From: Gammaproteobacteria bacterium
GTDB lineage: Bacteria; Pseudomonadota; Gammaproteobacteria; GRL18
Direction: 5' to 3'
DNA length: 36,043 bases
NCBI GenBank assembly: GCA_015488755.1
Contig: WFNB01000081.1
Span: 1-36,043 of the forward strand
Below are positions 3,097 through 32,529 of this stretch, one piece after another. How positions within the stretch are numbered: the stretch's first letter is position 1; each line of letters begins with the position of its first letter. The notes beneath the pieces are model-generated. The model was not told the DNA's origin, ran no database searches, and was given only the letters and a program-made list of their open reading frames with translations. Both the position numbers and the translations under genes were made by a program.

Positions 3097-3134
3097 CCTG
3101 AGTTCTGGATAACTGAATAAGTAACGTATCATAC

Positions 3135-3246
3135 GTAGGTACTTAAGGATAACTCTGTGTTTACGGGGGAAGTTTTTGCCACATGGATGTGGCAATAAAG
3201 CCTCCAGGGATGGATTTACGGCGTCTTGCGTAGTAAATACAGAGTT
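3135..3246 (-). repeat. Palindromic MITE-like repeat, copy 1 (inverted relative to copy 2)
   Basis: This 112-bp stretch is the reverse complement of 26765-26876, with only two mismatches. Inside is a perfect hairpin, TTGCCACAT (3176-3184), GG, ATGTGGCAA (3187-3195), nested between longer imperfect arms AACTCTGTGTTTAC and GTAAATACAGAGTT. It sits between two convergent genes and probably also works as a terminator or transcription block for both. Outside the shared core is another inverted pair, TAACCTGA near 3093-3101 and TCAGGTTA near 3246-3254, which is not present in copy 2. The first arm overlaps the stop of the GGDEF/EAL gene. Confidence 0.85.
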
Positions 3247-18639: not shown

Positions 18640-20178
18640 CTAGGATTCAGATTTTTCATCATCGTCACTACCATCAAGATCTTTTTCCTGTTCACTGCCC
18701 GTCATGACGATTGCGTCACTAACCAGTTGGTGAACACTCATAATGGCATCCATCTCGAAACCATAATAAGGTAATGTTTTGGTAAATTGGCTCTTACAAA
18801 TGGCACAGATTGCCGCAATATTAGTCACACCACTTTCTTCAGTGACTTGTTTCAGCGCTTCCATCCTAGGCAAAGCACCCTTAACACGTACTTCCATGAG
18901 ATCATCTGTTAAGATTCCACCACCACCACCACAGCAAAATGTTGCATCTTTAATGGTATCAGAATCCATATCAACGTAGTTGTTACAGGCGGCCTGAATG
19001 ACTGCACGAGGAATATCAAATTGTCCACCAGGCTTATCTCCCATACGGGAAGCGCGTGCAACGTTACATGAATCATGAAAGGTCATAGTCAAATGATCAT
19101 TCTCTGCCTTATTCATACGCAACTTACCTTCTTGCAGTGCACCATAGGTCACTTCAAGTATGTGTTGAGGCACAGGGTAGTTTTGATCTAAGAAATCAAA
19201 TGGACCAGCAAGTGTGTTTAAAAAGCTATACGCAACACGCCATGCATGCCCACACTCACCAAAAATAATACGTTTTACTTTAAGTTCAATAGCCGCTTCA
19301 CGAATGCGCATGGAAATTTTTTGAATATTTTCGTAACTGCCAATAAACAAACCAAAATTAGCTGCTTCAGATGCTAAAGAGCTTACTGTCCAAGTAATAC
19401 CCAATTCGTGTAATACTTTGCCATAACCAATTAGGCCATCGATATGGGGTTCAGCAAAGAAATCTGCTGATGGTGTCATCAATAAGGCATCACAACCTAC
19501 TTCATCCATATTGTATTTAACTGGTACACCGGTATCTTCTTCGACTTCTTCTTCAAGATCTTCAAGAATACCTTTCAATGCTGGACCGGGCAGACCTAAA
19601 TTATTACCAATTTTATAAACTTTCTGAATAATCTGGTTTGAATATTTTTGTCCCTTACCTACATGAGCAAGAATCTCACGAGCAGCCATTGTTACTTCTG
19701 CGGTATCAATACCCATTGGACAAAAAACAGAACAACGACGACATTCAGAGCATTGATGATAGTAGTTGTACCACTCATCCAGAACATCTTCCGTTAAATC
19801 AACAGCACCTACTAATTTAGGAAAGAATTTACCCGCGACAGTAAAGTAACGACGATATACTTTTCTCATCAAATCTTGACGAGCAACCGGCATATTTTTG
19901 GGATCATTCGTACCAATAAAATAATGACATTTATCAGTACAAGCACCACACTTAATACATGAATCCATAAACACTTGAAAAGAACGATAGCGACCTAATA
20001 GGTCACCCATTTTTTCCAATGTTTTCTCTTTCCAGTTCTCTGGTAATTCACCAGGATAGCCCAGATCGGTATCAAATTCTGCGCGAGAAATAAAAGGTCC
20101 TTTCCCAGCCATCGCATCTACTTTGATCTGAGGGACTACTGGATATTCTCTAAACTTGGGAGTTTCAAAGTCTGCCAC
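18640..20178 (-). CDS. dsrK: DsrK, cytosolic HdrD-like Fe-S subunit
   Basis: 512 residues. Two ferredoxin clusters lie at Cys74/77/80/84 (CIKCGACTDKC) and Cys143/146/149/153 (CSECRRCSVFC). Two CCG-type elements follow: ECGHAW, HDSC, then FCCGGGGG and AICAICKSQF, the heterodisulfide-reductase-like catalytic region that handles the DsrC disulfide or trisulfide. The C-terminus is acidic. The start is GTG, supported by the conserved MADFETP text and an AGGA upstream. It faces the cytosol and is anchored by DsrM, encoded 63 nt upstream. Confidence 0.96.
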   Translation of the reverse strand: MADFETPKFREYPVVPQIKVDAMAGKGPFISRAEFDTDLGYPGELPENWKEKTLEKMGDLLGRYRSFQVFMDSCIKCGACTDKCHYFIGTNDPKNMPVARQDLMRKVYRRYFTVAGKFFPKLVGAVDLTEDVLDEWYNYYHQCSECRRCSVFCPMGIDTAEVTMAAREILAHVGKGQKYSNQIIQKVYKIGNNLGLPGPALKGILEDLEEEVEEDTGVPVKYNMDEVGCDALLMTPSADFFAEPHIDGLIGYGKVLHELGITWTVSSLASEAANFGLFIGSYENIQKISMRIREAAIELKVKRIIFGECGHAWRVAYSFLNTLAGPFDFLDQNYPVPQHILEVTYGALQEGKLRMNKAENDHLTMTFHDSCNVARASRMGDKPGGQFDIPRAVIQAACNNYVDMDSDTIKDATFCCGGGGGILTDDLMEVRVKGALPRMEALKQVTEESGVTNIAAICAICKSQFTKTLPYYGFEMDAIMSVHQLVSDAIVMTGSEQEKDLDGSDDDEKSES

Positions 20179-20241
20179 TTTTCTAAATCCTCAAAAATTC
20201 CTAAAAACATTACTCTAAATAACGCTTATTTAGACTCAAAA

Positions 20242-20985
20242 CTACTTAGGTTGTGTCTTATTTTTCTCTGCATCTAAGTCTAATGCCCAATTCGCAACGT
20301 GACGTTTTTCACGTGGATTATCAACTTGATTACGAGAAGGAGCGAAGAACAGACCGGGAATATGTAATAACTTACTGAAAGGCAATAAAATCATCAACAC
20401 ACAGACTAAAAACAAATGAACCATAAGAGGAACATCAGTTGGTAGTGACTGCCAGTTAAAGGAAACTAAACCTAAACAAAATTCTTTTACTGCGATAATA
20501 TCGGTATGAGAGATAAAGCGCATTACAATACCGGTGAAGGCAATAAACATAAGCAAAATCAGCCATAAATAGTCTGATGGTGCTGAAATATATTTGACGC
20601 GAGCAACAAACAAGCGACGAGCAAAAAGACCAGCCAAACCAATGAACATTGTAAATGCAGCGTATTCGCCTACATTTTGTAATAAAACCAAAGGAAGTGG
20701 AACATCTTTAATAAAGAAGCGCAAATGATTTAATAGAACCACAAATAGGCTCATATGGAACAGCCAGCCAAATAGCCAAGTCCATTTATTTGAACGGAAT
20801 AAAGCAGCAAAGAGTATTGCTTCTTTAGCCAGTCTAATAGCCACGCCACCCTTTGTTAAAGGAGCAGGTGTGACTGGTATTTTCAACGGTGCCGGAACCC
20901 GTGAATACTGAATAATTTTTTTCACAAGCCCTAAAATCAGAACAAGAAAAGCCACTGTAAAAAGTAGCGCATAAAACGCTGACAT
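20242..20985 (-). CDS. dsrM: DsrM, membrane cytochrome b subunit
   Basis: 247 residues with about five or six membrane helices (near 3-22, 55-75, 78-98, 105-130, 140-160 and 185-210). Histidines in the helices (WLFHMSLFVVLLNHLRFF and VHLFLVCVL) suit NarI-like heme b binding. It exchanges electrons with quinone and with DsrK on the cytosolic side. A 134-nt gap with a hairpin separates it from dsrC, more than elsewhere in the operon. GGGTAGG provides the ribosome-binding site. Confidence 0.95.
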   Translation of the reverse strand: MSAFYALLFTVAFLVLILGLVKKIIQYSRVPAPLKIPVTPAPLTKGGVAIRLAKEAILFAALFRSNKWTWLFGWLFHMSLFVVLLNHLRFFIKDVPLPLVLLQNVGEYAAFTMFIGLAGLFARRLFVARVKYISAPSDYLWLILLMFIAFTGIVMRFISHTDIIAVKEFCLGLVSFNWQSLPTDVPLMVHLFLVCVLMILLPFSKLLHIPGLFFAPSRNQVDNPREKRHVANWALDLDAEKNKTQPK

Positions 20986-21018
20986 ATTACCTACCCATTA
21001 ATAATTTTTTAATATAAT

Positions 21019-21063
21019 GTGCAAGGGTTTCTAACATATTCCACTAAGTTAAAGACCCTGCAC
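21019..21063 (-). ncRNA. Intercistronic hairpin between dsrC and dsrM
   Basis: On the plus strand GTGCAAGGGTTTCTAAC (21019-21035) pairs with GTTAAAGACCCTGCAC (21048-21063), with one bulge and one mismatch and a 12-nt loop. In the mRNA (minus strand) it follows the dsrC stop and is not followed by a clear U-tract. A role in processing, in stabilising the upstream dsrC message or in partial termination is plausible. Confidence 0.5.
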
Positions 21064-21119
21064 ATGCACTTCTGCATAAAACCACTATATAGTTTTAGCA
21101 GAAATTTTTTCTTAGGTTG

Positions 21120-21455
21120 TTATACACAACCTGTTGGCTTAGGAAGACCAGCAAATTTACATGCTTGCTTACCAGGGCCATATGGGAATAACTCATATAA
21201 GTACTTAGAGTTACCTTTTTCTTTACCTAATTTCTTTGCAACTGCTTTTGTTAGTACACGTACAGCTGGAGCAATTTGGTACTCTTCATAGTACTCACGA
21301 AGGAAATTAATAATATCCCAGTGGTCATCGCCCATTTCAACTTCATCAATTTTTGCCATTTCAGTTGCAACTTCTGGGAACCAGTCAGAAAGATTTACTA
21401 GGTATCCTTCCTCATCAACTTCAACTTCTTTGCCTTCTACAGTAATAGTAGCCAT
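21120..21455 (-). CDS. dsrC: DsrC, sulfur-carrier substrate protein
   Basis: 111 residues. Both functional C-terminal cysteines are present: Cys99 (KQACKFAG) and penultimate Cys110 (TGCV), 11 residues apart as in bona fide DsrC. The swinging C-terminal arm receives sulfur from DsrEFH. It presents sulfur to DsrAB as persulfide or trisulfide and is recycled by DsrMKJOP. GGAG lies 7 nt before the ATG. It follows dsrEFH in the order typical of oxidisers. A Cys-less paralogue is encoded at 27082-27420. Confidence 0.97.
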   Translation of the reverse strand: MATITVEGKEVEVDEEGYLVNLSDWFPEVATEMAKIDEVEMGDDHWDIINFLREYYEEYQIAPAVRVLTKAVAKKLGKEKGNSKYLYELFPYGPGKQACKFAGLPKPTGCV

Positions 21456-21489
21456 TGTTTAACTCCAATAATAAAATGTTTATAAATAA

Positions 21490-21798
21490 TTACAGCCAAG
21501 ATTGAACGTTTGAATGCTCGGCTACCATATCAACGAAACCTGCATAATCAACGATTTTTATACCATCAAGTATGTCTGTTTCAGCAAAACCGCGAGTGTT
21601 TAGGTCTGAACCTAAAACACAAACGTTTTTATTTGCAATTGCAGCAGCCATTTGCTCTGCCACTTTAGTGCCTTTTAGGGCTCCCACTACAGCATCTTCA
21701 ATCAGTAGAATAGTAGAACCTTCTTTCGATTTAGACAAGCATGAGTTCAGTGAGTTACGCTCAAAAGGTGATTTATTTACAGTGTGTAACATTGCCAT
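21490..21798 (-). CDS. dsrH: DsrH, TusB-like sulfur transfer subunit
   Basis: 102 residues. The single-domain DsrE-like fold carries Cys20 (SLNSCLSK), the conserved DsrH cysteine. Subunit of the cytosolic DsrE2F2H2 hexamer that passes sulfane sulfur to DsrC. AAGGG precedes the ATG, and the gene starts 12 nt after dsrF. Confidence 0.95.
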   Translation of the reverse strand: MAMLHTVNKSPFERNSLNSCLSKSKEGSTILLIEDAVVGALKGTKVAEQMAAAIANKNVCVLGSDLNTRGFAETDILDGIKIVDYAGFVDMVAEHSNVQSWL

Positions 21799-21810
21799 TG
21801 TATTTTCCCT

Positions 21811-22221
21811 TTATGAACTTATCACTACGTCTTGTTGATCCATAAGATCAGCAAGTTCAGCACGTGAAACTAAATTTATTGATGGTTTCTCTGCCCAATC
21901 ATCATCTTCATCTTCATAAGTAAGATCCATGAGACTATCTAAAGTTAAACCACGCTCTTCTAAAGACTCTTTTTCAACATACAGCTTGTTGATATCGTAG
22001 TCACCCAAAGCTTTATAAGCATTTGAAAAATTTTTCATGCCTGATGCTTCAGTATTTTGCTTATCCATAATCTGGAAAACACCATCATCACAGAACACTA
22101 AACTTACATCCTGATCAAATGCCGCACTAATGAGCACAACTTCTAATGACTCCAGTGCGTAAACAGTACCATAAGGTGCTTTAGTGTTCACAAACATGAA
22201 TTTTTTAATACCATCACTCAT
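21811..22221 (-). CDS. dsrF: DsrF, TusC-like sulfur transfer subunit
   Basis: 136 residues with the DsrE-like fold (KKFMFVNTKAPYGTVYALESLEVVL at the start, LVFCDDGVFQI in the middle, then an acidic DEDDDW stretch). It lacks the DsrE-type active cysteine context, as expected for the non-catalytic F subunit of the DsrEFH hexamer. It sits 11 nt after dsrE with a clear AAGGGG site. Confidence 0.95.
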   Translation of the reverse strand: MSDGIKKFMFVNTKAPYGTVYALESLEVVLISAAFDQDVSLVFCDDGVFQIMDKQNTEASGMKNFSNAYKALGDYDINKLYVEKESLEERGLTLDSLMDLTYEDEDDDWAEKPSINLVSRAELADLMDQQDVVISS

Positions 22222-22232
22222 ATTGTTTCCCC

Positions 22233-22625
22233 TTAATCACCAAATGTTAATAAACGATCAGCTTGAATACCACCTTCGACTAACTGACCTAAGCCAGAAA
22301 TACGAAATGCTGGGTGAATATTATCTGCATCTTTACCTTGTCTGCCCGCTTCATCAGCATCTAACATGCCACGACGCTGTGCAGCAGCAATACAAACAAC
22401 CATATCTAATTCGTGTTCTTTAGCCAGCTCAGCCCAACGCTCAGTAATATTTCTATCATCTTGAGGGGGTACAGCCAAACGAGTTGCGTTATTCACGCCA
22501 TCGTTATAAAAAAACACACGATAAATTTCATGACCTTTTTCAATTGCAGCTTTAGCAAACTGATACGCTGTATCAGATGCTTGGTGCTGGTAAGGCCCTT
22601 CATTAATTAATAATGTAAATTTCAT
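22233..22625 (-). CDS. dsrE: DsrE, TusD-like catalytic sulfur transferase subunit
   Basis: 130 residues. Cys78 (MVVCIAAAQRRGM) matches the active-site cysteine of Allochromatium DsrE in both position and context. It accepts persulfide sulfur in the cytosol and hands it to Cys110 of DsrC. The presence of dsrE, dsrF and dsrH between dsrB and dsrC marks the oxidative-type pathway. Start preceded by AAAGG. Confidence 0.96.
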   Translation of the reverse strand: MKFTLLINEGPYQHQASDTAYQFAKAAIEKGHEIYRVFFYNDGVNNATRLAVPPQDDRNITERWAELAKEHELDMVVCIAAAQRRGMLDADEAGRQGKDADNIHPAFRISGLGQLVEGGIQADRLLTFGD

Positions 22626-22680
22626 TAAAGATTTACCTTTGGTTAGTGTGGACTGCTAACGAGTAACAGCCCTAACTAAT

Positions 22681-23757
22681 TTAAAAGTGAATATGTGTCG
22701 ACGCGTTCAGGCTATTTCTAGCACCTCTCCAGTCATCAATGTGGAATTTAGTAAATGGAAGACCTGTCTTCTCAAAGAAACCAAACCAACCAATTCTTTC
22801 AATCCAGTCATTCATGCGTTCCCAACCTTTAGCATCTTCTTTGTAGACTTTCAAGATGCGTTTAACTAAGGCTGTCGCTTCAGGCCAACGTGGTGGGTTA
22901 TTTGGAATACCTGCAGCAACCAGCTTCTGGAAGGTAGGCTTACCACGAGCATTTGAGTGGTTACCACCAACCCAGATAGCAAGTGTCGTATGAACTGCAT
23001 CATTAATAAGCATTGGAGGACAAGGAGGATAACATGCACCACAACAGATACATTTTTTCTCATCAACTTCTAATGTTGGGTTACCATCAACCATTGCGGG
23101 ACGAATAGCAGCAACAGGGCAACGAGCAACAATTGTTGGACGTTCACAAGCATTAGCAACTAAATCATGAGCAATCTTGGGTGGCTTAGTATGTTGGATA
23201 TTAATTGCAATGTCACCTTGACCACCACAGTTAATTTGACAACAAGAAGTCGTAATATGAACACGATTAGGCATTTCTTCACGTTTGAATTCTGTTACTA
23301 ACTCATCCATCATTGATTTAACAACACCAGACGCATCTGAACCTGGAATATCACAATGCAACCAACCCTGTGTATGGGAAGGTGCTGTAATAGTAGGTCC
23401 GGTACCACCAACAATCAAACCTGCTTTTTCAATTGCTTCAATCATTGGTGCTACTTTTGCTTCACTATCAACCATATACTCAAGGTTAGAACGAATAGTG
23501 AAACGGATAAAACCGTCGCCTAATTCGTTAGCAATGCGTGTAATTTCACGCAAAGTATAAACATCTAATATACGAGCAGTACCAACGCGAATAGTATAAA
23601 TTTCATCACCGCTATGAGCAACATGCTTTAGTACACCTGGACGAGGTCTTTCATGGTATTTCCACAAACCGAAATTTCTACGCATTGTTGGATGCATATA
23701 CTGGAAGCCATCTGGAGCCCCCGTTTCGATAGGCATTTTAGGTTTATCTGCAGCCAT
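22681..23757 (-). CDS. dsrB: Reverse dissimilatory sulfite reductase, beta subunit
   Basis: 358 residues. The siroheme/4Fe-4S-associated cysteines appear as SCCQINCGG (Cys172, 173, 177), and a ferredoxin insertion lies at KKCICCGACYPPC (about 236-246). Together with DsrA it forms the siroheme alpha2beta2 enzyme that oxidises DsrC-bound sulfur to sulfite in the cytosol. AGGAAATAAAA before the ATG is a good ribosome-binding site. The 140-nt gap from dsrA contains a hairpin. Confidence 0.97.
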   Translation of the reverse strand: MAADKPKMPIETGAPDGFQYMHPTMRRNFGLWKYHERPRPGVLKHVAHSGDEIYTIRVGTARILDVYTLREITRIANELGDGFIRFTIRSNLEYMVDSEAKVAPMIEAIEKAGLIVGGTGPTITAPSHTQGWLHCDIPGSDASGVVKSMMDELVTEFKREEMPNRVHITTSCCQINCGGQGDIAINIQHTKPPKIAHDLVANACERPTIVARCPVAAIRPAMVDGNPTLEVDEKKCICCGACYPPCPPMLINDAVHTTLAIWVGGNHSNARGKPTFQKLVAAGIPNNPPRWPEATALVKRILKVYKEDAKGWERMNDWIERIGWFGFFEKTGLPFTKFHIDDWRGARNSLNASTHIHF

Positions 23758-23790
23758 TTTTATTTCCTATTCTAATAAACTCATTCATAC

Positions 23791-23812
23791 TCAGGAGAGT
23801 CGCCCCTCCTGA
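23791..23812 (-). ncRNA. Intercistronic hairpin between dsrA and dsrB
   Basis: TCAGGAG (23791-23797), eight-base loop, CTCCTGA (23806-23812): a GC-rich stem in an otherwise AT-rich 140-nt spacer. No T-tract follows in the mRNA sense. It may mark a processing site or balance dsrA and dsrB expression. Confidence 0.5.
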
Positions 23813-23897
23813 CATTCTTAACTTATTAAATAACTTTGAATATTTGAATCTATGAACATTTAAAGTTATCCAGTGTTTACTTATCTGTTACAGTAAC

Positions 23898-25157
23898 TTA
23901 TGCAGTTGCTGCTTCAGCTTTTTTGTCGTACCACTTTTTAACTTCTTCGTCCCAGCCGTCCATACGAACATACGAACACTGACGTGGTTCACTGACCATA
24001 TTAGGATCCAATTCAAGGCCAATACCTTCGAGGTAGTTAACCAGACCAATACGTTCAATCATCTCACCTGTACGTTCATGCTCTAAAGCATTTTCAGCAA
24101 AGAAATCAATCATTTCACCTGTTAGCTCAACAAGCTCTTCAATTTCTTCCATGGTGTCAACTTTTAAGAAAGGTGCTACTACCGTACCCATCATGTCACC
24201 AATTTTCAAAGTACGCTTACCACCAATAAGAATGCTTACACCTTTGTCATCGCCAGGTGCTAACGCTTTGGTCATAACATTAATACAATGCATACAGCGA
24301 ACACATTCTTTATTGTTTACATCCAGTGTATCGTCATCATTTAATTTAATGGCATTAGATGGACAACGATCAGTAACATTATCAATTACATAATCACGAC
24401 CTTTGGCTTCAACAAATGCTTTAACTTCGGCTTGATCAACTTTCATGTCATCACGCCAAATACCAATCACGGCCATATCAGCTCGTTCAATTGCATTAGT
24501 GCAGTCATTTGGACAACCTGAAACTTTTATCTTCCATTTGTAAGGAAGTGCAGGTCTGTGTAAATCATCTTGAAATTCATTCACTAAGTGACGCATCAAA
24601 CCTTGTTCATTAGTACAAGAATGCTCACAACGAGCAGCACCTACACAGGCCATTGCCGTACGAACACAAGGCCCAGCACCACCCAAATCAAAGCCATAGG
24701 AATTCAATTTATCAAAGAATGGTTGCATCTCATCGGTAGTAGAACCGATAAACATAATATTACCTGTCTGACCATGGAAGGTCTGCAAACCAGAACCATG
24801 TTTTTCCCAGTCATCGGCTAACTGATTTAAAATATCAGCACTATAGAAGTTGCCTGCTGGTGGCTGAATACGTACGGTATGGAATTCTTTTGACTCAGGG
24901 AAATGCTCAGCTACTTCAGAAAAACGTGGAATAATACCGCCGCCGTAACCAAATACAGAAACCGTTCCACCTTTCCACCAACCCATACGAGTTTCATAGG
25001 AGTGTTCTAGCTGGCCTAATAGTCCGCCAACCATTGAATTAATCCGCTCATCTGGGTGCTCATCTCTTAAACGCTTAAATGATGAGATAAAGCTAGGCCA
25101 TTCACCATTTTCCAGCTCATCTAGCATCGGAGTATCATAGATCGTTACTTTAGGCAC
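23898..25157 (-). CDS. dsrA: Reverse dissimilatory sulfite reductase, alpha subunit
   Basis: 419 residues. Cys171-x5-Cys177 (CVGAARC) and Cys215-x3-Cys219 (CPNDC) are the siroheme-4Fe4S ligands. A ferredoxin domain follows with Cys265, 285, 288 and 291 (CVRCMHC). The catalytic subunit of the cytosolic sulfite reductase, running in the oxidative direction in organisms that also carry DsrEFH and DsrL. The start is GTG (rc of 25155-25157), 6 nt after AGGGAG and matching the conserved MPKVTIYDTPMLDELE text. It is the first gene of the dsr operon, behind a 556-bp divergent regulatory region. Confidence 0.98.
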   Translation of the reverse strand: MPKVTIYDTPMLDELENGEWPSFISSFKRLRDEHPDERINSMVGGLLGQLEHSYETRMGWWKGGTVSVFGYGGGIIPRFSEVAEHFPESKEFHTVRIQPPAGNFYSADILNQLADDWEKHGSGLQTFHGQTGNIMFIGSTTDEMQPFFDKLNSYGFDLGGAGPCVRTAMACVGAARCEHSCTNEQGLMRHLVNEFQDDLHRPALPYKWKIKVSGCPNDCTNAIERADMAVIGIWRDDMKVDQAEVKAFVEAKGRDYVIDNVTDRCPSNAIKLNDDDTLDVNNKECVRCMHCINVMTKALAPGDDKGVSILIGGKRTLKIGDMMGTVVAPFLKVDTMEEIEELVELTGEMIDFFAENALEHERTGEMIERIGLVNYLEGIGLELDPNMVSEPRQCSYVRMDGWDEEVKKWYDKKAEAATA

Positions 25158-25396
25158 AGTTTTCTCCCTTAGGTAAATTTGGTACTACTAAATATCGTTT
25201 AGTAATTTTAATATTGCTTTGAGTCATGCTTATTGAATATTTCCACGTCAACTCAAAACAGTCAAACTTTTTTAAGCCTTGCAAAGATACACGATTATTT
25301 CATTTATCACAAGACACACATAAAACAATGGTGTGAATTTTAGGACTTAATAATAAACTATTAAACCCTTCCTTTGGGAGGCATGCACACTAGGTT

Positions 25397-25439
25397 GATA
25401 TCCCCTTGTGGATATATCTATTTCTTCGATAAAATTCAA
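25397..25439 (-). promoter_or_regulatory. Candidate dsrA promoter with overlapping dyad
   Basis: Read on the minus strand, TTGAAT (25439-25434), 17-bp spacer, TATATC (25416-25411). An inverted repeat, GATATCC (25397-25403) to GGATAT (25410-25415) with a 6-bp spacer, covers the predicted -10 and start point, where a repressor would sit. The leader to dsrA would be about 245 nt. Consensus matches are moderate (4/6 each). Nothing else in 25158-25396 or 25440-25594 stands out, apart from general AT-richness. Confidence 0.3.
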
Positions 25440-25594
25440 CTTTAGAAATAAAATGACTTATCAAGCACTTAAGAGTATCAAGTAGAATACCCTTTGCCTT
25501 ACTAGGCCATTTCTTTATCTAAAAAAATTCTCATCCGCAACCACTAATTAAATTTAACGTTCAAGATTATATACTATTACTTACCCATTTAATG

Positions 25595-25636
25595 CTGATT
25601 AAGATCAATCTATCTAAATTTTAATTTATTCATAAA
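25595..25636 (+). promoter_or_regulatory. FNR-type box with correctly spaced -10 (class II promoter)
   Basis: CTGAT-TAAG-ATCAA (25595-25608) matches the FNR/Anr consensus TTGAT-N4-ATCAA at 9 of 10 defined bases. Its centre at 25601.5 would place a start point at 25643, and CATAAA (25631-25636) lies exactly at -12 to -7. A TACCCAT heptamer, which fits the NarL-type pattern TACYYMT, is 6 bp upstream (25582-25588). The promoter would drive the plus-strand genes (small unknown and the Cas6-like gene) and might also affect dsrA. Confidence 0.5.
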
Positions 25637-25713
25637 TGGCTATTCATCACTTGAAAATCAGCCACTCAAAACCCATCTTTACATCATATATTTTAATGCC
25701 CAGAGTAATTGTT

Positions 25714-25905
25714 ATGTTAATTTTAAGCGAAGTGTTAATTCAGAATCATCAATTAGAATCTTATTCTGACCTCATTGACTTGATTCAAAAAAAAGCAGTT
25801 GAAGGTGAAATGTTTTTTGATATCGATATCAAACCCCCATTCCCTGATACCCCTGATGAATGGGAAACCGATCTAGAAGCAAAATTTACCAGCCCTCTTG
25901 AATAA
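25714..25905 (+). CDS. Small acidic hypothetical protein upstream of the Cas6-like gene
   Basis: 63 residues from MLILSEVLIQN. In-frame ATGs exist at 25636 and 25696, but the 25636 codon lies on the predicted -10 hexamer and the residues it would add look unconstrained. The 25714 start has only a weak AGAG upstream, so this start is provisional. The protein has an N-terminal beta/helix half and an acidic C-terminus with a Pro/Asp run (KPPFPDTPDEWETDLEAKF). No family recognised. Being 121 nt upstream of the Cas6-like gene on the same strand, it may be its partner. Confidence 0.6.
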   Translation: MLILSEVLIQNHQLESYSDLIDLIQKKAVEGEMFFDIDIKPPFPDTPDEWETDLEAKFTSPLE

Positions 25906-26026
25906 CAAAAATTGGTACCAATGATTTTAAAGTACTTTATTGTGTTATTTAAAACCATTTGCAGCAATTTTTTTGGCTGTGGCACTTCTAAATAATAAAC
26001 TATAAGCAAACAAGAGCCTTCTTACT

Positions 26027-26713
26027 ATGTTTTGGAATGAAGAGGAAAATTTAGATAATTTTCAAGCACCACAAAATGTCATTGATTTATCATTTAAAAT
26101 TTCTTGCCAACAAATTAAACTCGACCATGCATGGTCTTTAACTGATGCGATAAGTGATTTAGTTCCTTGGATTAAGGATGAGCCACAACTTGCAATCCAT
26201 CATATTTATATTCCTCAAGCAGGAAATGGTTGGGAACGTGCTGATAATTTTCAAGATGAATTAATTCAATTATCCCGCCGAACCCGTCTTAAAATTCGAG
26301 TGCCAAATAAAAAAATAACACAATTACAAGCAATCACAGGGGAAACCATTACGGTTGATGGCAATAGGTTAACCTTTGGACAATCTGAAACTCACTTGCT
26401 CAGTACAATGACAACAATTATCGCTCGACATGTACACATCCCAGAAACCGATGATGATGAAGACCTTTTTTTAAGGATTGCTCAAAAACAAATTAATGCC
26501 TTAGGGATACAAGTCAGAAAAATGCTCTGTGGCAAATCACATCAACTAAAAACGACATCGGGTATTATTAAAACACGTAGTCTAATGATTGCTGATATTT
26601 CACCAGATGAATCCATTTTATTACAAGAAAAAGGTATCGGGGACTATTATCGTTATGGTTGTGGCATTTTTATCCCTCAAAAAGGAATTACTGCCGTTAA
26701 TAGTTCAGATTAA
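26027..26713 (+). CDS. Solo Cas6/Cmx6-like RAMP-fold protein
   Basis: 228 residues. The closest family I know is the Cmx6-type Cas6 (type I-MYXAN) of CRISPR systems: an N-terminal VIDLSFKISCQQIKLDHAW strand-helix, NGWERADNF, SRRTRLKIRVP, then CGKSH-QLKTTSG and the C-terminal glycine-rich loop GIGDYYRYGCGIFIPQKG (about 203-220) that binds RNA in Cas6 proteins. Cas6 enzymes cleave CRISPR repeat RNA, but no CRISPR array or other cas gene is visible here. Candidate catalytic histidines (34, 58, 59, 172) cannot be ranked without a structure. It lies between the dsr operon and dsrN/dsrR, followed immediately by a hairpin-rich repeat element. The role here is unknown. Confidence 0.7.
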   Translation: MFWNEEENLDNFQAPQNVIDLSFKISCQQIKLDHAWSLTDAISDLVPWIKDEPQLAIHHIYIPQAGNGWERADNFQDELIQLSRRTRLKIRVPNKKITQLQAITGETITVDGNRLTFGQSETHLLSTMTTIIARHVHIPETDDDEDLFLRIAQKQINALGIQVRKMLCGKSHQLKTTSGIIKTRSLMIADISPDESILLQEKGIGDYYRYGCGIFIPQKGITAVNSSD

Positions 26714-26727
26714 CTAATTAATTTGTA

Positions 26728-26883
26728 TTCATAGGTAGGTACTTAAGCACTTCTGAGGCAGGATAACTCTGTATTTACTACGCAAGACGCCGTAAATCCA
26801 TCCCTGGAGGCTTTATTGCCACATCCATGTGGCAAAAACTTCCTCCGTAAACACAGAGTTATCTTTAAGTACCTACTCATGAA
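26728..26883 (+). mobile_element. MITE-like palindromic element, copy 2 (complete, with apparent target duplication)
   Basis: About 156 bp. The ends form imperfect terminal inverted repeats beginning TTCAT with a perfect core GTAGGTACTTAA (26735-26746) versus TTAAGTACCTAC (26865-26876). TTTGTA (26722-26727 and 26884-26889), part of a repeated AATTTGTATT, flanks both ends as a likely target-site duplication. The core 26765-26876 is 110/112 identical to the inverse of 3135-3246. Inside is the hairpin TTGCCACAT-CC-ATGTGGCAA (26816-26835). No coding capacity, so it would have been moved by a transposase acting in trans. It directly follows the Cas6-like gene. 26890-27081 is plain AT-rich DNA with the promoter of the next gene somewhere in it. 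Confidence 0.8.
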
Positions 26884-27081
26884 TTTGTATTAAAAATATC
26901 AATTGGTTAATTTTAATACCTTAGTAATCCAAATAAATTCTATCTCTTATTGGGGGTGTATTTTATTTGTAACTCATATATTATCGGTTATCTTAAAACA
27001 TCATATAATATATAAAATTAATCTTATAAACTAATTGCACTATTTATTTGTTTATATCTTATTTATTACGGAGTAAATTCA

Positions 27082-27420
27082 ATGCCTATTACTTTTGATG
27101 GTAAAGAAATAGAAACAACCGCTAATGGATATCTTACTGATATTAGCGATTGGAGTGAAGGTCTCGCAAAGCAGATGGCTGCTGAGGAAGACATTGAGCT
27201 AACAGACAAACACTGGGATCTCATTAATTTTTTACGCGATCAGTTTCTAAATAATGGTGGTAAGAACCCTAATACTCGTGCTCTAATTAAAGAAATGAGT
27301 GCGACTTGGGGTGAAAAAATAGGTTCAAAAGATCTTTATAATCTTTTCCCGAAAGATCCAAGTAAACAAGGCGGTCGCATTTCAGGTTTACCAGAAAGTA
27401 AACGAAAGGGTGGCTACTAA
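27082..27420 (+). CDS. rspA: Cysteine-less DsrC paralogue (RspA type)
   Basis: 112 residues, clearly DsrC/TusE fold: compare DsrC DDHWDIINFLRE with DKHWDLINFLRD here, and KYLYELFP with KDLYNLFP. It contains no cysteine at all: the positions of DsrC Cys99 and Cys110 are Gly98 and the GGY terminus. It cannot carry sulfur in the DsrC manner. Cys-less homologues have been called RspA and are proposed to be regulatory, some through DNA binding. GGAG precedes the ATG. It is surrounded by dsr-associated genes and has its own long leader, suggesting separate control. Confidence 0.92.
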   Translation: MPITFDGKEIETTANGYLTDISDWSEGLAKQMAAEEDIELTDKHWDLINFLRDQFLNNGGKNPNTRALIKEMSATWGEKIGSKDLYNLFPKDPSKQGGRISGLPESKRKGGY

Positions 27421-27499
27421 CCCACTTACAATTTAGATAACCTGTTGTTTTTGTAGTAACTAACATGGTATCAGGGAAATCTAGAAAATAAATCTAATG

Positions 27500-27524
27500 A
27501 TGGGTAAGGTGCTACACTACCCAT
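27500..27524. repeat. Inverted repeat of TACCCAT heptamers downstream of the DsrC paralogue
   Basis: ATGGGTA (27500-27506) and TACCCAT (27518-27524), extendable by an inner GTG/CAC pairing. No T-tract follows, so it is not an evident terminator. It could be an mRNA hairpin or a dyad operator for the gene at 27617. The heptamer also fits a NarL-type half-site. Confidence 0.4.
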
Positions 27525-27616
27525 TGTAGGTATAGTATATAAGAATATACTCAGATATATTATGTCAAAATTGTTAGCTTATAGCGCCGATTCAGTCGGT
27601 TTATTGGAGATATTAA

Positions 27617-27826
27617 ATGAGCACTAAAGCAGAACTGATTCAAGAATTACTTGAAATGCAAAGAAATTTTATTAAATATGAACATGAAAATGGCATGCAT
27701 CCCGATGATTATTATAATCCAGGTGCAGGACATGAACTAGAAAACTATAAAACTGACTTCATGGATAAAGCAGTTCAAGTTTTAGATATGGCTCACGAAG
27801 AAAAAGATTCTGCTTGGAAACGTTAA
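27617..27826 (+). CDS. Small hypothetical protein in the dsr region
   Basis: 69 residues beginning MSTKAELIQELLEMQRNFI. Two helical segments flank a central GMHPDDYYNPGAGHELENYK block; the composition is acidic and there are no cysteines. GGAG lies 9 nt before the ATG, and a good terminator follows, so it is a self-contained gene. Family and function not recognised. Its position between the DsrC paralogue and dsrN suggests a sulfur-oxidation link only by association. Confidence 0.75.
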   Translation: MSTKAELIQELLEMQRNFIKYEHENGMHPDDYYNPGAGHELENYKTDFMDKAVQVLDMAHEEKDSAWKR

Positions 27827-27863
27827 GCGTCTCTTGAATTTAGAAGTATGAATCATAGCGATG

Positions 27864-27890
27864 AAAGGTCACTTAATGTGGCCTTTTTTT
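27864..27890 (+). terminator. Rho-independent terminator
   Basis: AAAGGTCAC, loop TTAAT, GTGGCCTTT with a following run of Ts. One G-T pair in the stem. It ends the 69-residue gene and insulates dsrN. Confidence 0.85.
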
Positions 27891-27953
27891 ATGCCTTAAG
27901 CATTTATAGTCAAACAACTTGAAAAAAACTATCCAGCCCCTATCTTCTATACT

Positions 27954-29387
27954 ATGTCAATTCCACCAACACCATTATTTATATCTGCGGCTCATAAATC
28001 TTCAGGTAAAACCACCATTACCATTGGACTTTTATCTGCTTTTAAAAATAAAGGCTTTAATGTTCAACCCTTCAAAAAAGGTCCTGATTATATAGACCCA
28101 TTATGGCATGGCAATGCAGCCGGCAATCCTTGCTACACATTAGACTTTAACACCATGACACAAAAGGAAATATTACAATTAGTCTCCCAAAAATTAACTT
28201 CGTGTGATATTTCTTTAGTAGAGGGTAATAAAGGTCTCTATGATGGTCTGGATCTCGATGGTAGTAATAGCAATGCTGCCATAGCAAAACTCATTAATGC
28301 ACCCGTTATTCTGGTACTTGATACTAGGGGTATGACCAGAGGCATTGCCCCTCTAATTTTAGGTTATCAAGCCTTTGATCCTAAAATCAACATTACCGGC
28401 GTTATATTAAACCAGTTAGGTGGTTCTCGGCACGAAAGCAAATTACGCTCAGTTATTGAGCACTATACAGACATCTCTGTATTAGGTGCTGTGCATAAAG
28501 ATAAGCATCTTGAAATTGTTGAACGTCATTTGGGGCTTATGCCTAGTAATGAAGATGGTGAAGCACAAAAGAAAATTACCGATATAGGTAAAATTATATC
28601 ATCCCAAGTTGATCTGGATAAAATTATTAAGATCAGCCATGCAGATTCACCTTCTTATAAAATAAGCCCTATTATTAAGCATTCTAATAAAAAGAAAAAT
28701 GAGCATCCATTACGACTTGCCTATATTAATGACAGTGCTTTTGGCTTTTATTATCCTGGAGATTTAGAAGCATTAGAAGCAGCTGGTGCTGAACTGATTG
28801 AAGTCAATTCTCTTATAGATAAGCAGTTACCCCATGATATAGATGGCTTATTTATAGGGGGTGGTTTTCCTGAAGAGCATTTAGAAAAATTAAACCAGAA
28901 CCACTCTTTTCGCCAGTCAATCTACCAAGCCATTGAAAATGGCTTACCTACTTATGCTGAATGTGGTGGCTTGATGTATTTATGCAGAAATATCATCAGT
29001 AAAGGACAACAGCTTAATATGGTGGGGATTATCCCCGCAGATGCAAAAATGGAAGAAGTCCCCCAAGGTCGTGGTCTCATACGTTTTAGTGAAACCCACT
29101 TAATGCCTTGGCCCAATGTGTCCCAAAATACAAGTAATACCATAGAAGGAATTGTGGATAGCAGTATTTCAGCTCATGAATTTCATTATTCCCATTTAAT
29201 CAATATTAGCAAACCACTCAACTATGCCTATGATATACACCGTGGTAGCGGCGTTGATGGTCAACATGATGGTATTGTATATAAAAACCTTTTAGCTTGT
29301 TATGCTCATTTACAAGATACAGAACAAAACCACTGGGCAAAACGATTTATTCAATTTATCCAGAAAATAAAAACGGAATCCTCTTAA
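27954..29387 (+). CDS. dsrN: DsrN / cobyrinic acid a,c-diamide synthase (CobB) family
   Basis: 477 residues. The N-terminal ATPase has a P-loop AAHKSSGKTT and KKGPDYIDPLWH. The C-terminal class I glutamine amidotransferase domain has IGGGFPEEH and the cysteine nucleophile in YAECGGLMY, with HEFHYSH near the end. In dsr clusters this homologue is named DsrN and is thought to amidate siroheme for DsrAB. A vitamin B12 role cannot be excluded from sequence alone, but adjacency to dsrR and the dsr operon favours DsrN. The ribosome-binding site is weak. It probably forms a unit with dsrR, 96 nt downstream. Confidence 0.92.
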   Translation: MSIPPTPLFISAAHKSSGKTTITIGLLSAFKNKGFNVQPFKKGPDYIDPLWHGNAAGNPCYTLDFNTMTQKEILQLVSQKLTSCDISLVEGNKGLYDGLDLDGSNSNAAIAKLINAPVILVLDTRGMTRGIAPLILGYQAFDPKINITGVILNQLGGSRHESKLRSVIEHYTDISVLGAVHKDKHLEIVERHLGLMPSNEDGEAQKKITDIGKIISSQVDLDKIIKISHADSPSYKISPIIKHSNKKKNEHPLRLAYINDSAFGFYYPGDLEALEAAGAELIEVNSLIDKQLPHDIDGLFIGGGFPEEHLEKLNQNHSFRQSIYQAIENGLPTYAECGGLMYLCRNIISKGQQLNMVGIIPADAKMEEVPQGRGLIRFSETHLMPWPNVSQNTSNTIEGIVDSSISAHEFHYSHLINISKPLNYAYDIHRGSGVDGQHDGIVYKNLLACYAHLQDTEQNHWAKRFIQFIQKIKTESS

Positions 29388-29483
29388 ATTTATATTTTTT
29401 AGCTTAACAGTGCCCACAGCCAAAAAAGAGTACAGAAAAACAAGTGCATATCAACAATTTAATAGATAGAAGTGAGATAAACT

Positions 29484-29795
29484 ATGATAAAACTAACAGA
29501 AGATGCTGCCAAAAAAATAGCCAGTCAGATAAGTGCTAGCAATGAAAAGGATCCTTTACGCATTGCAGTCACACAACATAGCAAACATAAGGGTTTCCAA
29601 TACCTAATGGGCTTTGACAAAAAAACTGATAATGATAACCTTTATGACGTGCGGGGAGTCCAAATTATTGTTAATAATGATTTAGCCGATATTATTAACG
29701 GCATGGAGGTTGACTTTGTAGAGGTTGAAGGAGAAGAAAGTCAATTTATTTTCAAAAACCCAAATGATCCTACTTATAAAGCACCCACTGAATAA
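29484..29795 (+). CDS. dsrR: DsrR, IscA-like protein without cluster-binding cysteines
   Basis: 103 residues with the A-type Fe-S carrier fold (MIKLTEDAAKKIASQI at the start, FQYLMGFD, IIVNNDLADIINGMEVDFVE). The three cysteines that bind clusters in IscA are absent, and no cysteine occurs anywhere, which is the known hallmark of DsrR. In Allochromatium DsrR is needed for efficient sulfur oxidation, with a post-transcriptional effect proposed. It follows dsrN as in the Allochromatium cluster and has a GTGAG site before the ATG. Confidence 0.93.
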   Translation: MIKLTEDAAKKIASQISASNEKDPLRIAVTQHSKHKGFQYLMGFDKKTDNDNLYDVRGVQIIVNNDLADIINGMEVDFVEVEGEESQFIFKNPNDPTYKAPTE

Positions 29796-29809
29796 GAGTT
29801 AATTCTATA

Positions 29810-29842
29810 GTCATCAATTTATCCCCTAGATAAATTGATGAC
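29810..29842. repeat. Perfect 14-bp inverted repeat after dsrR
   Basis: GTCATCAATTTATC (29810-29823), loop CCCTA, GATAAATTGATGAC (29829-29842). It begins 14 nt after the dsrR stop and lies 47 nt before the sensor-kinase start. There is no U-tract, so rather than a standard terminator it may be a 3'-end stabiliser or an operator for the kinase gene. Confidence 0.6.
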
Positions 29843-29888
29843 ACACAAAGCAAGTCTGCATTAAGCTTGCACAAATAAAGTCATTATT

Positions 29889-31547
29889 ATGCCTCTTGAA
29901 CAAATAAGAAGAATATCAGGTAACTCTAAGGATCCAAGCAAAGAACCTATTCGCTTGAAATACAGTCGATTATTTCTTCCTCTTATTACCTTAGGTATTA
30001 TTCTTATCACTATTTCAGGACTTAATTTTCTAGCTCTAAATCACATGATCATCAGCCATAACTTACTATTATGGTTAAATTTCCTTTTCTTATTTCTCGG
30101 CCTATTTTTTATTTTACGCATTTCTTTTTTAATTCGTCACGATCTAGTCACCCCTTTTATTCATTTAAGAAATTGGGCATTGCAAATGAAGAAGAAGGAT
30201 TATAGTGCCCGTTTACCTATGCCAAAAAGTGGTGAATTCTCAAAATTAGCCATTGATATCAATTCTTTAAGTGATAAATTGCAAAGTCTATCCGCTGAAT
30301 TTCAACACGAGGTAGATAAACAGACACACAAAGTTGAAGAAAAAAATCATTCCTTAAACATTCTTTATGAGGTAGCAACCTCAATGAACCGCTCCAAAGA
30401 TTTGGATGATTTATTGTCTCAATTTCTCAAAATGCTTATTAATGTTACCAATGCTAAAGCTGGCACAGTGCGCTTACGCACTGAAGATGATCAATTAAAA
30501 ATGGTGGCCTCGATTGGTCTTAATGAAGACTTTATCCGAGAAGAACATTATGTTCCCATACAACGTTGCCTCTGCGGTACATCATTAACCCAAGGCTCTG
30601 TTGAGTGTGGCATATCCATTAAAAATTGTAGCAAACTATCAGGAACAGAACTTTTCTCCGGTAATGACGCCGAAATTATTGCTGTTCCCTTAGAACACCA
30701 AGGTGTACATTTAGGCATTTATAATTTATTTATTGATAAGCCCAATGTCTACATGAGTGAAGATTTATCTGAATTATTAACCAGTATTGGCAAACATTTG
30801 GGCATGGCAATAGAAAAAACTCGCTTAGATAAAGACTCACGGCATCACTCTATTATGAAAGAGCGAACATTACTTGCCCATGAATTGCATGATTCATTAG
30901 CCCAAACCTTAGCAAGCTTACGCTTTCAGGTCAGTATTTTAGAAGAAAATATCTTAGAAAATATTCCTGTTAAGCGTGATGAAGTCACTCGCCTTCATGA
31001 AAGTATTGATGAAGCATATCGAGAGGTTCGAGGTCTTATTACACACTTTAGAGCACCTATGAATAAGCGAGGCTTAATTCCATCATTAGAACAATTAATT
31101 GCTAACTTTCAATCCAATTGTGACATCCCTATTTTTTTTCAGAATGAGTGGGCAATGGAGCTTAAATCAGAACAAGAATTTCAAATTGTTCGCATTGTTC
31201 AAGAGTCTCTTGCTAATGTTAGAAAGCACAGTCAGGCACGTACTGTCCGGATCCTTGCTCGCAGCCCAAAAAATACTGTAGATGACTCCCAAAAGCAACA
31301 ATGTGAGATTCTTATTGAAGACGATGGTGTTGGTATGAAAACGCCCAATCTAACAAATAGTTTAGGAGAGCACATTGGAATCAGTGTCATGGAAGAGCGG
31401 GCACGGCGCATTGGAGGAACCATTTCAATTGAAACCGAAGCTGGTGAGGGGACTCAAATTCTGTTAACATTTCCTTCCCAGACTGTAATTGAAAAGTCAG
31501 TTAAATTTTTCCCTGAATTAATCAACTTAAATCATGCGGAAAAATAA
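29889..31547 (+). CDS. NarX-type membrane sensor histidine kinase with cysteine-bearing GAF domain
   Basis: 552 residues. Two membrane helices (about 27-49 and 57-80) are separated by only about 7 residues, so there is no periplasmic sensing domain of the nitrate-binding NarX/NarQ sort. A HAMP-like segment (about 85-140), coiled coil, GAF domain (about 165-312), HisKA_3 (ERTLLAHELHDSLAQ, phosphoacceptor His334) and HATPase (VQESLANVRKHS, EDDGVGM) follow. The GAF domain holds Cys227, 229, 240 and 247 (RCLCG, VECG, NCSK), a possible redox or metal sensor. It is encoded 93 nt after dsrR and 119 nt before its response regulator. Sensing of redox or sulfur state is inference. Confidence 0.92.
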   Translation: MPLEQIRRISGNSKDPSKEPIRLKYSRLFLPLITLGIILITISGLNFLALNHMIISHNLLLWLNFLFLFLGLFFILRISFLIRHDLVTPFIHLRNWALQMKKKDYSARLPMPKSGEFSKLAIDINSLSDKLQSLSAEFQHEVDKQTHKVEEKNHSLNILYEVATSMNRSKDLDDLLSQFLKMLINVTNAKAGTVRLRTEDDQLKMVASIGLNEDFIREEHYVPIQRCLCGTSLTQGSVECGISIKNCSKLSGTELFSGNDAEIIAVPLEHQGVHLGIYNLFIDKPNVYMSEDLSELLTSIGKHLGMAIEKTRLDKDSRHHSIMKERTLLAHELHDSLAQTLASLRFQVSILEENILENIPVKRDEVTRLHESIDEAYREVRGLITHFRAPMNKRGLIPSLEQLIANFQSNCDIPIFFQNEWAMELKSEQEFQIVRIVQESLANVRKHSQARTVRILARSPKNTVDDSQKQQCEILIEDDGVGMKTPNLTNSLGEHIGISVMEERARRIGGTISIETEAGEGTQILLTFPSQTVIEKSVKFFPELINLNHAEK

Positions 31548-31589
31548 TCTGATGAATAAATCTCTTTGTAAATACAACCATTATTAGAA

Positions 31590-31604
31590 TTAGAGAGTCT
31601 CTAA
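31590..31604. promoter_or_regulatory. 15-bp dyad upstream of the response regulator
   Basis: TTAGAGA-G-TCTCTAA, a perfect palindrome around one central base, 62 bp before the regulator's start codon. Candidate operator, possibly for autoregulation. Confidence 0.4.
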
Positions 31605-31666
31605 GCCAAGACATTTAATCTGAAAATATAACTTAGCACTTTAACTTAACAACGTAGGCAATGCTT

Positions 31667-32317
31667 ATGAAAGTTTTACTCATTGATGATCATACTCTTT
31701 TTCGCGCAGGTCTTCAGGGCTTACTAGAACGCATGGGAATAGAAGTTGTTGCCAGTGCCGGCAGTGGCCAAGAAGGTTTAAAAATCGTCAGTGAAAAGAA
31801 ACCTGATGTTGTTCTTCTTGATATGCGTATGCCAGACATGGATGGTATTGAGGTTCTAAAAAACCTTCGCGAGCAAGGCGAAGAAATGCCTATTGCTATT
31901 TTAACCACTGTCGATGATGAACGTGACTTAATTGAAGCATTGCAATGCGGAGCCCAAGGCTTTTTACTGAAAGGCATGCAACCGGATGAACTTGTTACCG
32001 CCTTACAGGACATTCATAATGGCAAAACCGTTGTTGCCCCTGATCTCACGCCAATTTTAGCTAAAGTTGTTCAAGGCCATGTGCCTCCTGCCCCTGAGCC
32101 TAGTCCTTTTTCTGAGCTTACACCAAGGGAAACTGAAATTCTTTTTCTACTAGCAGAAGGCCAAAGTAACAAAGTTATTGCCCGTAACCTTGATATATCC
32201 GATGGCACAGTAAAATTGCATGTAAAAGCAATATTGAGAAAACTTAATATTCATTCTCGTGTAGAGGCCGCCGTTATGGCAGTGCAACACGGGTTATTAA
32301 AAAAATCAGATTCCTAA
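31667..32317 (+). CDS. NarL/FixJ-family response regulator
   Basis: 216 residues from MKVLLIDDH. An in-frame ATG two codons earlier is only 2 nt after the AGG element, while the later ATG has an 8-nt spacing, so the later one is chosen. The receiver domain has acidic Asp7/Asp8, phosphoacceptor Asp52 (VLLDMRMPD), Thr in ILTTVDD and Lys in LLKGM. The C-terminal LuxR-type helix-turn-helix (LTPRETEILFLLAEGQSNKVIA, DGTVKLHVKAILRKL) binds DNA. Partner of the preceding kinase. Its likely targets include nearby promoters carrying TACYYMT-like heptamers (inference). Confidence 0.95.
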   Translation: MKVLLIDDHTLFRAGLQGLLERMGIEVVASAGSGQEGLKIVSEKKPDVVLLDMRMPDMDGIEVLKNLREQGEEMPIAILTTVDDERDLIEALQCGAQGFLLKGMQPDELVTALQDIHNGKTVVAPDLTPILAKVVQGHVPPAPEPSPFSELTPRETEILFLLAEGQSNKVIARNLDISDGTVKLHVKAILRKLNIHSRVEAAVMAVQHGLLKKSDS

Positions 32318-32428
32318 TAAAAATAGATATTATGGCAATGATAGTTAATCAATTATTAAAAATAACAAAAAAAGAAATTGATAAATCATCCTCTTAGCGT
32401 ATTGAAGCAGTAATACCTCATTAGCTAA

Positions 32429-32442
32429 CTGATAATCATCAA
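32429..32442 (+). promoter_or_regulatory. FNR-type box upstream of glycogen phosphorylase
   Basis: CTGAT-AATC-ATCAA, the same half-sites as the box at 25595-25608 (9/10 to consensus). It is about 88 bp upstream of the glgP start. The best -10 candidate, CATTAT (32468-32473), is about 3 bp off ideal class II spacing. The remaining 32318-32529 is AT-rich with no further structure that I can support. Confidence 0.4.
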
Positions 32443-32529
32443 TCAATGTCTGCTCACTTGATATGGACATTATTCCGCCAGCCCATAATAACTTAATACA
32501 CAAACACCCACTTATTATTGAAGACTCTT

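Follow-up and report, generated by a model that had tools for sequence, protein, structure and literature searches.

A solo Cas6/Cmx6-family protein, very probably domesticated, at the dsr locus of gammaproteobacterial sulfur oxidizers

The stretch of DNA considered here (the window) is one whole contig of 36,043 bases. The features that bear on the argument are given below with coordinates and strand.

20986-21119, minus strand: dsrC-dsrM intergenic region with a conserved stem-loop (structure signal in relatives), a candidate substrate only
23898-25157, minus strand: dsrA, the divergent neighbor and first gene of the dsr cluster (585 bits to TIGR02064)
25714-25905, plus strand: X62, a small, acidic, mostly helical protein upstream of cas6, 63 residues here
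26027-26713, plus strand: the dsr-linked Cas6/Cmx6-family protein of 228 residues, with the presumed general base His34, R91, and the glycine-rich loop GIGDYYRYGCG
26940-26958, plus strand: palindrome-like element CTATCTCTTATTGGGGGTG upstream of the DsrC paralog, with a −10-like box TATATTAT at about 26977
27082-27420, plus strand: DsrC-family paralog without the two DsrC cysteines, ending in RKGGY (profile matches, alignment)
27517-27535, plus strand: related element CTACCCATTGTAGGTATAG upstream of s69, with a −10-like box TATATTAT at about 27555
27617-27826, plus strand: s69, an ORF of 69 residues conserved in the loci of relatives
27954-29387, plus strand: dsrN, with a CobB/CobQ-like amidotransferase domain, named from domain and position
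29484-29795, plus strand: dsrR, IscA-like, named from domain and position

To the left of cas6, the minus strand carries dsrA, dsrB, and more dsr genes, those other than dsrA being named by position. On the plus strand the order is X62, cas6, the DsrC paralog, s69, dsrN, dsrR, and a histidine kinase/NarL-like regulator pair. A first-pass annotation of this DNA had placed cas6 between dsrA and the dsrN/dsrR genes, and this is right, with dsrA on the minus strand and dsrN and dsrR on the plus strand; the DsrC paralog and s69 stand between cas6 and dsrN. The small partner-like gene that it had seen upstream of cas6 is present as well, but its start has moved, most likely to 25714 (MLILSEV..., 63 residues), because conservation in most relatives begins there. 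Loss of both DsrC cysteines and the RKGGY tail are common to 12 of 12 rows of the DsrC paralog compared, and cysteine-less DsrC relatives of this type go by the name RspA. A second dsrA, also scoring 585 bits, lies on another contig of the same genome (C68:15812-17023) with no dsrB-like second match there, and two dsrA genes are found in several relatives too (e.g. G005, G007, G008, G013, G014, G021, and G022).

The ORF at 26027-26713 is a true member of the Cas6 family by sequence and fold. It contains the loop reported in the first-pass annotation, and the Cas6-like character proposed there is borne out by profile: TIGR02807 (cas6_cmx6) matches at 8.1e-36 (123.8 bits against a cutoff of 98.85), Pfam PF09559 at 1.4e-57 (195.2 bits against a cutoff of 26.7), and PADLOC Cas6, of which several models match, at 2.5e-56. 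In the PDB, the sequence matches the type I-B CAST Cas6 8fcj_B at 8.3e-12. An AlphaFold2 model built from a 12-row alignment (pLDDT 84.3) has the double-RAMP fold of Cas6, and 8fcj_B again takes the top rank in structure comparison (VIA-align Z 24.7, rmsd 1.9, 198 residues), followed by many further Cas6 structures, with which Foldseek agrees. The window protein is the sole TIGR02807 match in its genome, the type III Cas6 proteins of which belong to PF10040.

The Cas6/Cmx6 proteins of type I-MYXAN and I-B CRISPR-Cas and of I-B CAST (TIGR02807, PF09559; 8fcj, 8fcu) share both family and fold with the window protein, which retains their presumed catalytic histidine, R91, and a glycine-rich loop with GCG. 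Unlike them, it stands in dsr surroundings without an adjacent array or cas genes, belongs to a separate clade, and is acidic, not basic; its clade also has invariant residues of its own (W3, W69, E145, K165, and G169, each 89/89). Type III Cas6, Cas6e, Cas6b, and others (e.g. 5yi6, 3ufc, 3pkm, 2y8w, and 4z7k) have the same double-RAMP fold (Z 17 to 11), with about 7–15% identity to the window protein in structural alignments.

A cas6 gene next to dsr genes is recurrent and not a one-off, as seen in our relatives set, in a 397-genome phylum sample, and in 80 named loci. In the relatives set, the cas6 query (P0001) has a match in 28 of 57 genomes, one copy each, including 16 of 16 of the genus. 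Among these 28 carriers, dsrA is over its cutoff in 22, is a fragment or below cutoff in 4 (G001, G009, G011, and G056), and is without a convincing match in 2 (G010 and G017), both fragmented assemblies. Twenty-four genomes of the set have dsrA over the cutoff; in the 2 in which a cas6 match is missing (G018 and G019), the contig breaks off upstream of dsrA, either at the gene itself or within about 310 bases. In the phylum sample, TIGR02807 is found in 6 genomes (the window's own included) and dsrA over cutoff in 39. Restricted to the class, both criteria pick out one and the same group of 6 genomes, in each of which cas6 is dsr-linked; at the five loci besides the window, dsrA lies within about 5 kb and the DsrC paralog adjoins cas6. 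The 33 dsrA genomes of other classes in this sample yield no TIGR02807 match.

The named records point the same way. The best 80 of 420 relatives were analyzed. Close relatives of the window are present in both series of loci, L030-L047 and L057-L073. All 80 titles are gammaproteobacterial or unassigned proteobacterial, and Thiocapsa, Allochromatium, Chromatium, Thiothrix, Leucothrix, Sedimenticola, and Thiosymbion are among them. Phage records contain no match. Across these best 80, a dsr gene is found within 10.5 kb of cas6 in 61 loci; 16 of the other 19 are shortened by contig ends below the full 20-kb view. Three loci, L120 (Chromatium weissei), L126 (Thiothrix singaporensis), and L129 (Chromatium okenii), show the cassette without dsr in the 10 kb on each side and still have X62, cas6, and the DsrC paralog. 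Counted over the same best 80, X62 is near cas6 in 74 loci, the DsrC paralog in 64, and s69 in 51. Among 79 of these loci, X62 and cas6 are at most 60 nt apart in 47 and more than 600 nt apart in 21; in the loci read closely, the large gap contains an ORF of ~235 residues without an assignment. Linkage to dsrAB is thus conserved, as for an accessory of the reverse-dsr locus. In this respect cas6 is like dsrN, dsrR, and dsrS, which are conserved at the dsr loci of sulfur oxidizers and none of which encodes a Cas6-fold protein. DsrR takes part in the regulation of sulfur oxidation (PMC11406059), and the word "CRISPR" has no occurrence in the main text of that paper.

Several distant loci carry other genes around the cassette. 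A TauD-like dioxygenase gene lies between dsrA and X62 in a number of them (PF02668 in the three proteins tested, from L077, L083, and L089), a TauD-like 2-oxoglutarate dioxygenase is recognized by sequence only upstream of X62 in L092, L116, and L197, and genes for PiuC-like hydroxylases are near the cassette in many loci.

X62 reaches beyond the range of cas6. Of six dsr loci from other classes, five have X62 next to dsrA without cas6 and the remaining one is cut by a contig end, so X62 is not a partner exclusive to Cas6. Models that find divergent members detect no Cas6 in these six loci, and our own Cas6 models return nothing at E 10 in 17 stretches (L186-L202); when the four divergent rows were withheld from model building, all four were recovered at 1e-43 to 8e-54. 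A Cas6 profile search of nine dsrA-positive genomes without cas6 (the six other-class genomes and G018-G020), run without a positive control, likewise gives nothing at E 10. Since X62 stands beside dsrA without Cas6 in other classes, Cas6 looks like a later addition to an older dsr flank. A fold search with X62 in the PDB gives nothing with E under 1.

The dsr-linked proteins have a history of their own. In a tree of 41 dsr-linked rows chosen from 93 and seven CRISPR-borne Cmx6 proteins, made by a quick method with SH-aLRT support only, the two groups fall on the two sides of one branch (SH-aLRT 99). The CRISPR-borne comparators come from one phylum only, on cyanobacterial plasmids; eight were found, and the partial eighth was left out. 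Over 56 loci, distances between cas6 proteins track those of dsrA (Mantel rho 0.756, 0 of 2000 permutations), and the two genes are co-inherited. Three pairs of close relatives have dN/dS values of 0.115, 0.055, and 0.032, which indicates purifying selection on cas6.

The presumed active site has been kept. His34 is found in 88 of 89 gammaproteobacterial rows, which may include near-duplicates, in three of four divergent rows, and in seven of seven CRISPR-borne rows. R91 and the glycines of the G-loop are invariant, and GCG is present in 89 of 89 rows. In the predicted model, His34 sits directly before helix 1, and this position together with its conservation suggests that it is the catalytic residue. 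It is replaced in two dsr-linked proteins, by Asn in L104 (a gammaproteobacterial row) and by Tyr in L177 (a divergent row), so that activity may possibly have been lost in some lineages.

The charge of the protein has changed. Median pI is 5.7 in 18 close relatives, 5.9 in 71 others (range 4.8–8.9), and 6.3 in the four divergent rows, versus 9.4 in the seven CRISPR-borne proteins. With a pI of 5.8, the window protein does not have the basic character expected for RNA binding, a measure that concerns function, family membership resting on profile and fold. In the G-loop, the window protein has GDYYRYGCG versus GGKRRxGCG in four of seven CRISPR-borne proteins, the KRR/KRH segment being replaced by YYRY. 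Retention of the presumed catalytic histidine favors a role in RNA processing, and the loss of basic character speaks against tight RNA binding in the CRISPR style.

The main rival to an RNA-level role is a second use of the Cas6 fold, in a subunit that binds proteins or acts in regulation, possibly together with X62, the DsrC paralog, or DsrC, and that has given up cutting RNA or binding it tightly. The charge reversal relative to CRISPR-borne Cmx6, with basic G-loop residues lost in close relatives, would fit such a subunit, as would a pI of 8.6 in both type III Cas6 proteins of the same genome, the new invariant residues of the dsr clade, and the tight linkage to X62. However, conservation of the presumed catalytic histidine, R91, and the G-loop glycines equals that in the CRISPR-borne proteins, and a mere scaffold would have no need of these residues. 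Acidity may be background, the proteins of the window being acidic in general (median net charge −6, 36 ORFs), and X62 does without cas6 in the other-class loci described above. On balance we regard this protein-binding role as somewhat less probable than the RNA-level reading.

In a search for an RNA substrate, several intergenic regions of the dsr locus gave structure signals in close relatives. These were scored against 40 column shuffles per window, and z-scores with near-zero variance, obtained in several regions, were ignored. The strongest belongs to a terminator-like hairpin after s69 (z −21.0), followed by the stem-loop of the dsrC-dsrM gap (8 loci, z −16.8), short stems in the dsrA-X62 region on the side of the dsrA leader (z −11.3), short stems before the DsrC paralog (z about −11), and a signal between dsrA and dsrB (z −6.7). 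The dsrA leader hairpin was set aside as a substrate, as it occurs in close relatives only and with mismatches. The dsr intergenic regions examined yielded no RNA element whose sequence is conserved in every clade, and an Rfam search of positions 20000-32500 gave nothing above the gathering score and one match below threshold.

Distant loci also have a stem-loop downstream of dsrC, with a conserved structure but a different sequence. Scored locus by locus against 60 mononucleotide shuffles, z falls below −3 in five of seven close relatives, 19 of 40 other gammaproteobacterial loci, two of four divergent loci, and one of seven loci in which cas6 was not seen. That sole positive, G018, is a family member with the cas6 side cut off, hence none of the six other-class loci is positive. 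The comparison of 26 of 51 cas6-bearing loci with 0 of 6 other-class loci gives a hypergeometric p of 0.020 and a two-sided Fisher value of 0.027, both uncorrected for phylogeny and base composition. The medians differ little, at −2.9 in other gammaproteobacterial loci versus −2.1 in loci without cas6. As a candidate substrate of Cas6, the stem-loop after dsrC is a lead only.

The first-pass annotation had also named repeat-derived hairpins among the possible targets. A dispersed repeat does follow cas6, at about 26735-26882; its segment 26765-26882 has an inverted second copy at 3129-3246 that is 97% alike over 118 nt. None was seen in the corresponding gaps of close relatives. Because the element is dispersed, has a second copy, and was not seen in those gaps, it is not a conserved substrate.

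A second alternative keeps the nuclease and moves its target: the protein would be an RNase for another cellular RNA (tRNA, a small RNA, or another mRNA), and its link to dsr would be one of regulation or co-inheritance only. The lack of a universal RNA element in the dsr intergenic regions examined is compatible with this, and so are the three loci that have the cassette without dsr in view. Against it, presence matches dsrA in 6 of 6 genomes of the class sample and the cas6 distances track those of dsrA. We consider such a substrate outside dsr quite improbable.

Neither an array nor other cas genes, as would mark a working CRISPR Cas6, are present at the locus. The earlier statement that no CRISPR array is visible in the 36-kb window holds, and it extends to 107 neighborhood loci, searched for 20-mers that recur at 45–110 nt in at least three copies. 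No cas genes surround cas6 in the neighborhoods mapped with window proteins, a mapping that seeks relatives of window genes only. A genome-wide search does find arrays, all on other contigs. Contig C47 has a 10-copy array with Cas1, Cas2, and a Cas_NE0113 protein; C69 has a 22-copy array, with a repeat related to that of C47, and a PF10040 Cas6; and C14 has another PF10040 Cas6, C69 and C14 being type III regions. A type I-C locus with Cas5c lies on C93, and Cas1 with an I-F-type Cas3 on C95, where no further part of that system was seen.

Dependence on CRISPR-Cas elsewhere in the genome, as expected of a working Cas6 component, does not hold in every carrier. A Cas1 match is present in 14 of 28 carriers and missing in the other 14, of which 13 are also without a Cas3-HD match; completeness of these 13 is at least 90% in nine and below 80% in four. 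The Cas1-less carrier G042, assembled as one contig and 100% complete, has no match to Cas3-HD or Cas10-palm either. The Cas10-palm model is of limited value as a CRISPR marker, as it gives weak hits, probably to GGDEF-type proteins, in the majority of genomes and also in E. coli. The C47 repeat occurs in none of the 56 other genomes of the relatives set, though all 16 of the genus have cas6. Because half of the carriers are without Cas1 and other CRISPR loci have their own Cas6 or Cas5c, CRISPR service by the dsr-linked Cas6 is unlikely. The specific proposal of a trans-acting role in crRNA processing, for arrays at other places in the genome, which could draw on the family name, on the arrays of C47 and C69, and on the carriers with Cas1, is very improbable in view of the Cas1-less carriers, the complete G042 genome, the PF10040 Cas6 of both type III regions, the Cas5c of the type I-C locus, and the restricted C47 repeat.

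The proposal of the first-pass annotation that a solo Cas6 has been recruited away from immunity is therefore well supported by the fold, the class-wide linkage to dsr, the lack of nearby arrays, the Cas1-less carriers, and the processing nucleases that several CRISPR loci of the genome have of their own. That the protein is a domesticated accessory of the dsr locus we hold with little doubt. A Cas6/Cmx6-type protein would have left CRISPR-Cas early in the history of gammaproteobacterial sulfur oxidizers and settled as a constant accessory at the reverse-dsr locus, where it forms a cassette with X62, the DsrC paralog, and s69 beside dsrAB.

For what the domesticated protein does, we favor, at slightly less than even confidence, action at the RNA level on dsr expression. 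It most likely still recognizes short RNA hairpins and probably cleaves them with the conserved His34; its targets would be cellular, dsr-related transcripts and not CRISPR repeats, and its action would tune the stability or ratio of these transcripts. The parts of this reading differ in strength. RNA of some kind is rather probably the ligand, whereas a dsr-related RNA as the ligand is a tentative assignment, held somewhat less firmly than the reading as a whole. More tentative still is the specific version in which a domesticated endoribonuclease cuts dsr stem-loops, one candidate being that after dsrC, and so might adjust the amount of DsrC relative to the other pathway components. The RNA-level reading is favored by the contrast in post-dsrC stem-loops (26/51 versus 0/6) and by the retention of His34, R91, and the G-loop glycines; it is weakened by the loss of basic charge, the replacement of His34 in L104 and L177, the small difference in median z, the lack of an RNA element shared by all clades in the regions examined, the absence of Rfam matches above the gathering score, and the dsr-less loci L120, L126, and L129.

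Known members of the Cas6 family cut RNA in CRISPR immunity. A conserved Cas6 at the dsr locus, with no CRISPR genes alongside, suggests the takeover of one component of bacterial immunity by energy metabolism. If this is true, CRISPR machinery has been exapted across a large clade of gammaproteobacterial sulfur oxidizers, and a Cas6 function outside CRISPR can be put to a direct test in a pathway of environmental importance. The dsr neighborhood gains a conserved member; we found no description of a dsr-linked, solo, or orphan Cas6 in the literature searched, the coverage of which leaves out most subscription journals. There is also a warning for annotation. Because 6 of 6 genes labeled "type I-MYXAN CRISPR-associated protein Cas6/Cmx6" in the 397-genome phylum sample are dsr-linked, that label can yield false calls of partial CRISPR systems.

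The FNR-type promoter of the first-pass annotation is not conserved: its site at 25595-25608 has one mismatch, and of 13 intergenic regions between dsrA and X62 (the window and close relatives) only 4 contain a similar site. One-mismatch FNR-like sites number 12 in the window versus 4.16 expected.

Another element is shared more widely. A palindrome-like sequence (TAYCC-N5-GGRTA / GGGATATAG) lies about 20 nt before a −10-like box in the spans 26940-26984 and 27517-27562 of the window, and the combination is found upstream of the DsrC paralog and of s69 in close and distant clades (intergenic regions of L074-L136). The first copy can pair with G-U wobbles in close relatives, as an RNA hairpin would, but the near-constant distance of about 20 nt to the −10-like box makes a DNA operator the more probable reading. 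The elements are probably an activator site of two separate promoters, perhaps as part of a sulfur regulon. The pattern GATATAG-N17-23-TAWWNT occurs in none of 73 intergenic regions before the DsrC paralog, where the element has another form, and in 23 of 55 before s69, versus a shuffled mean of 0.04.
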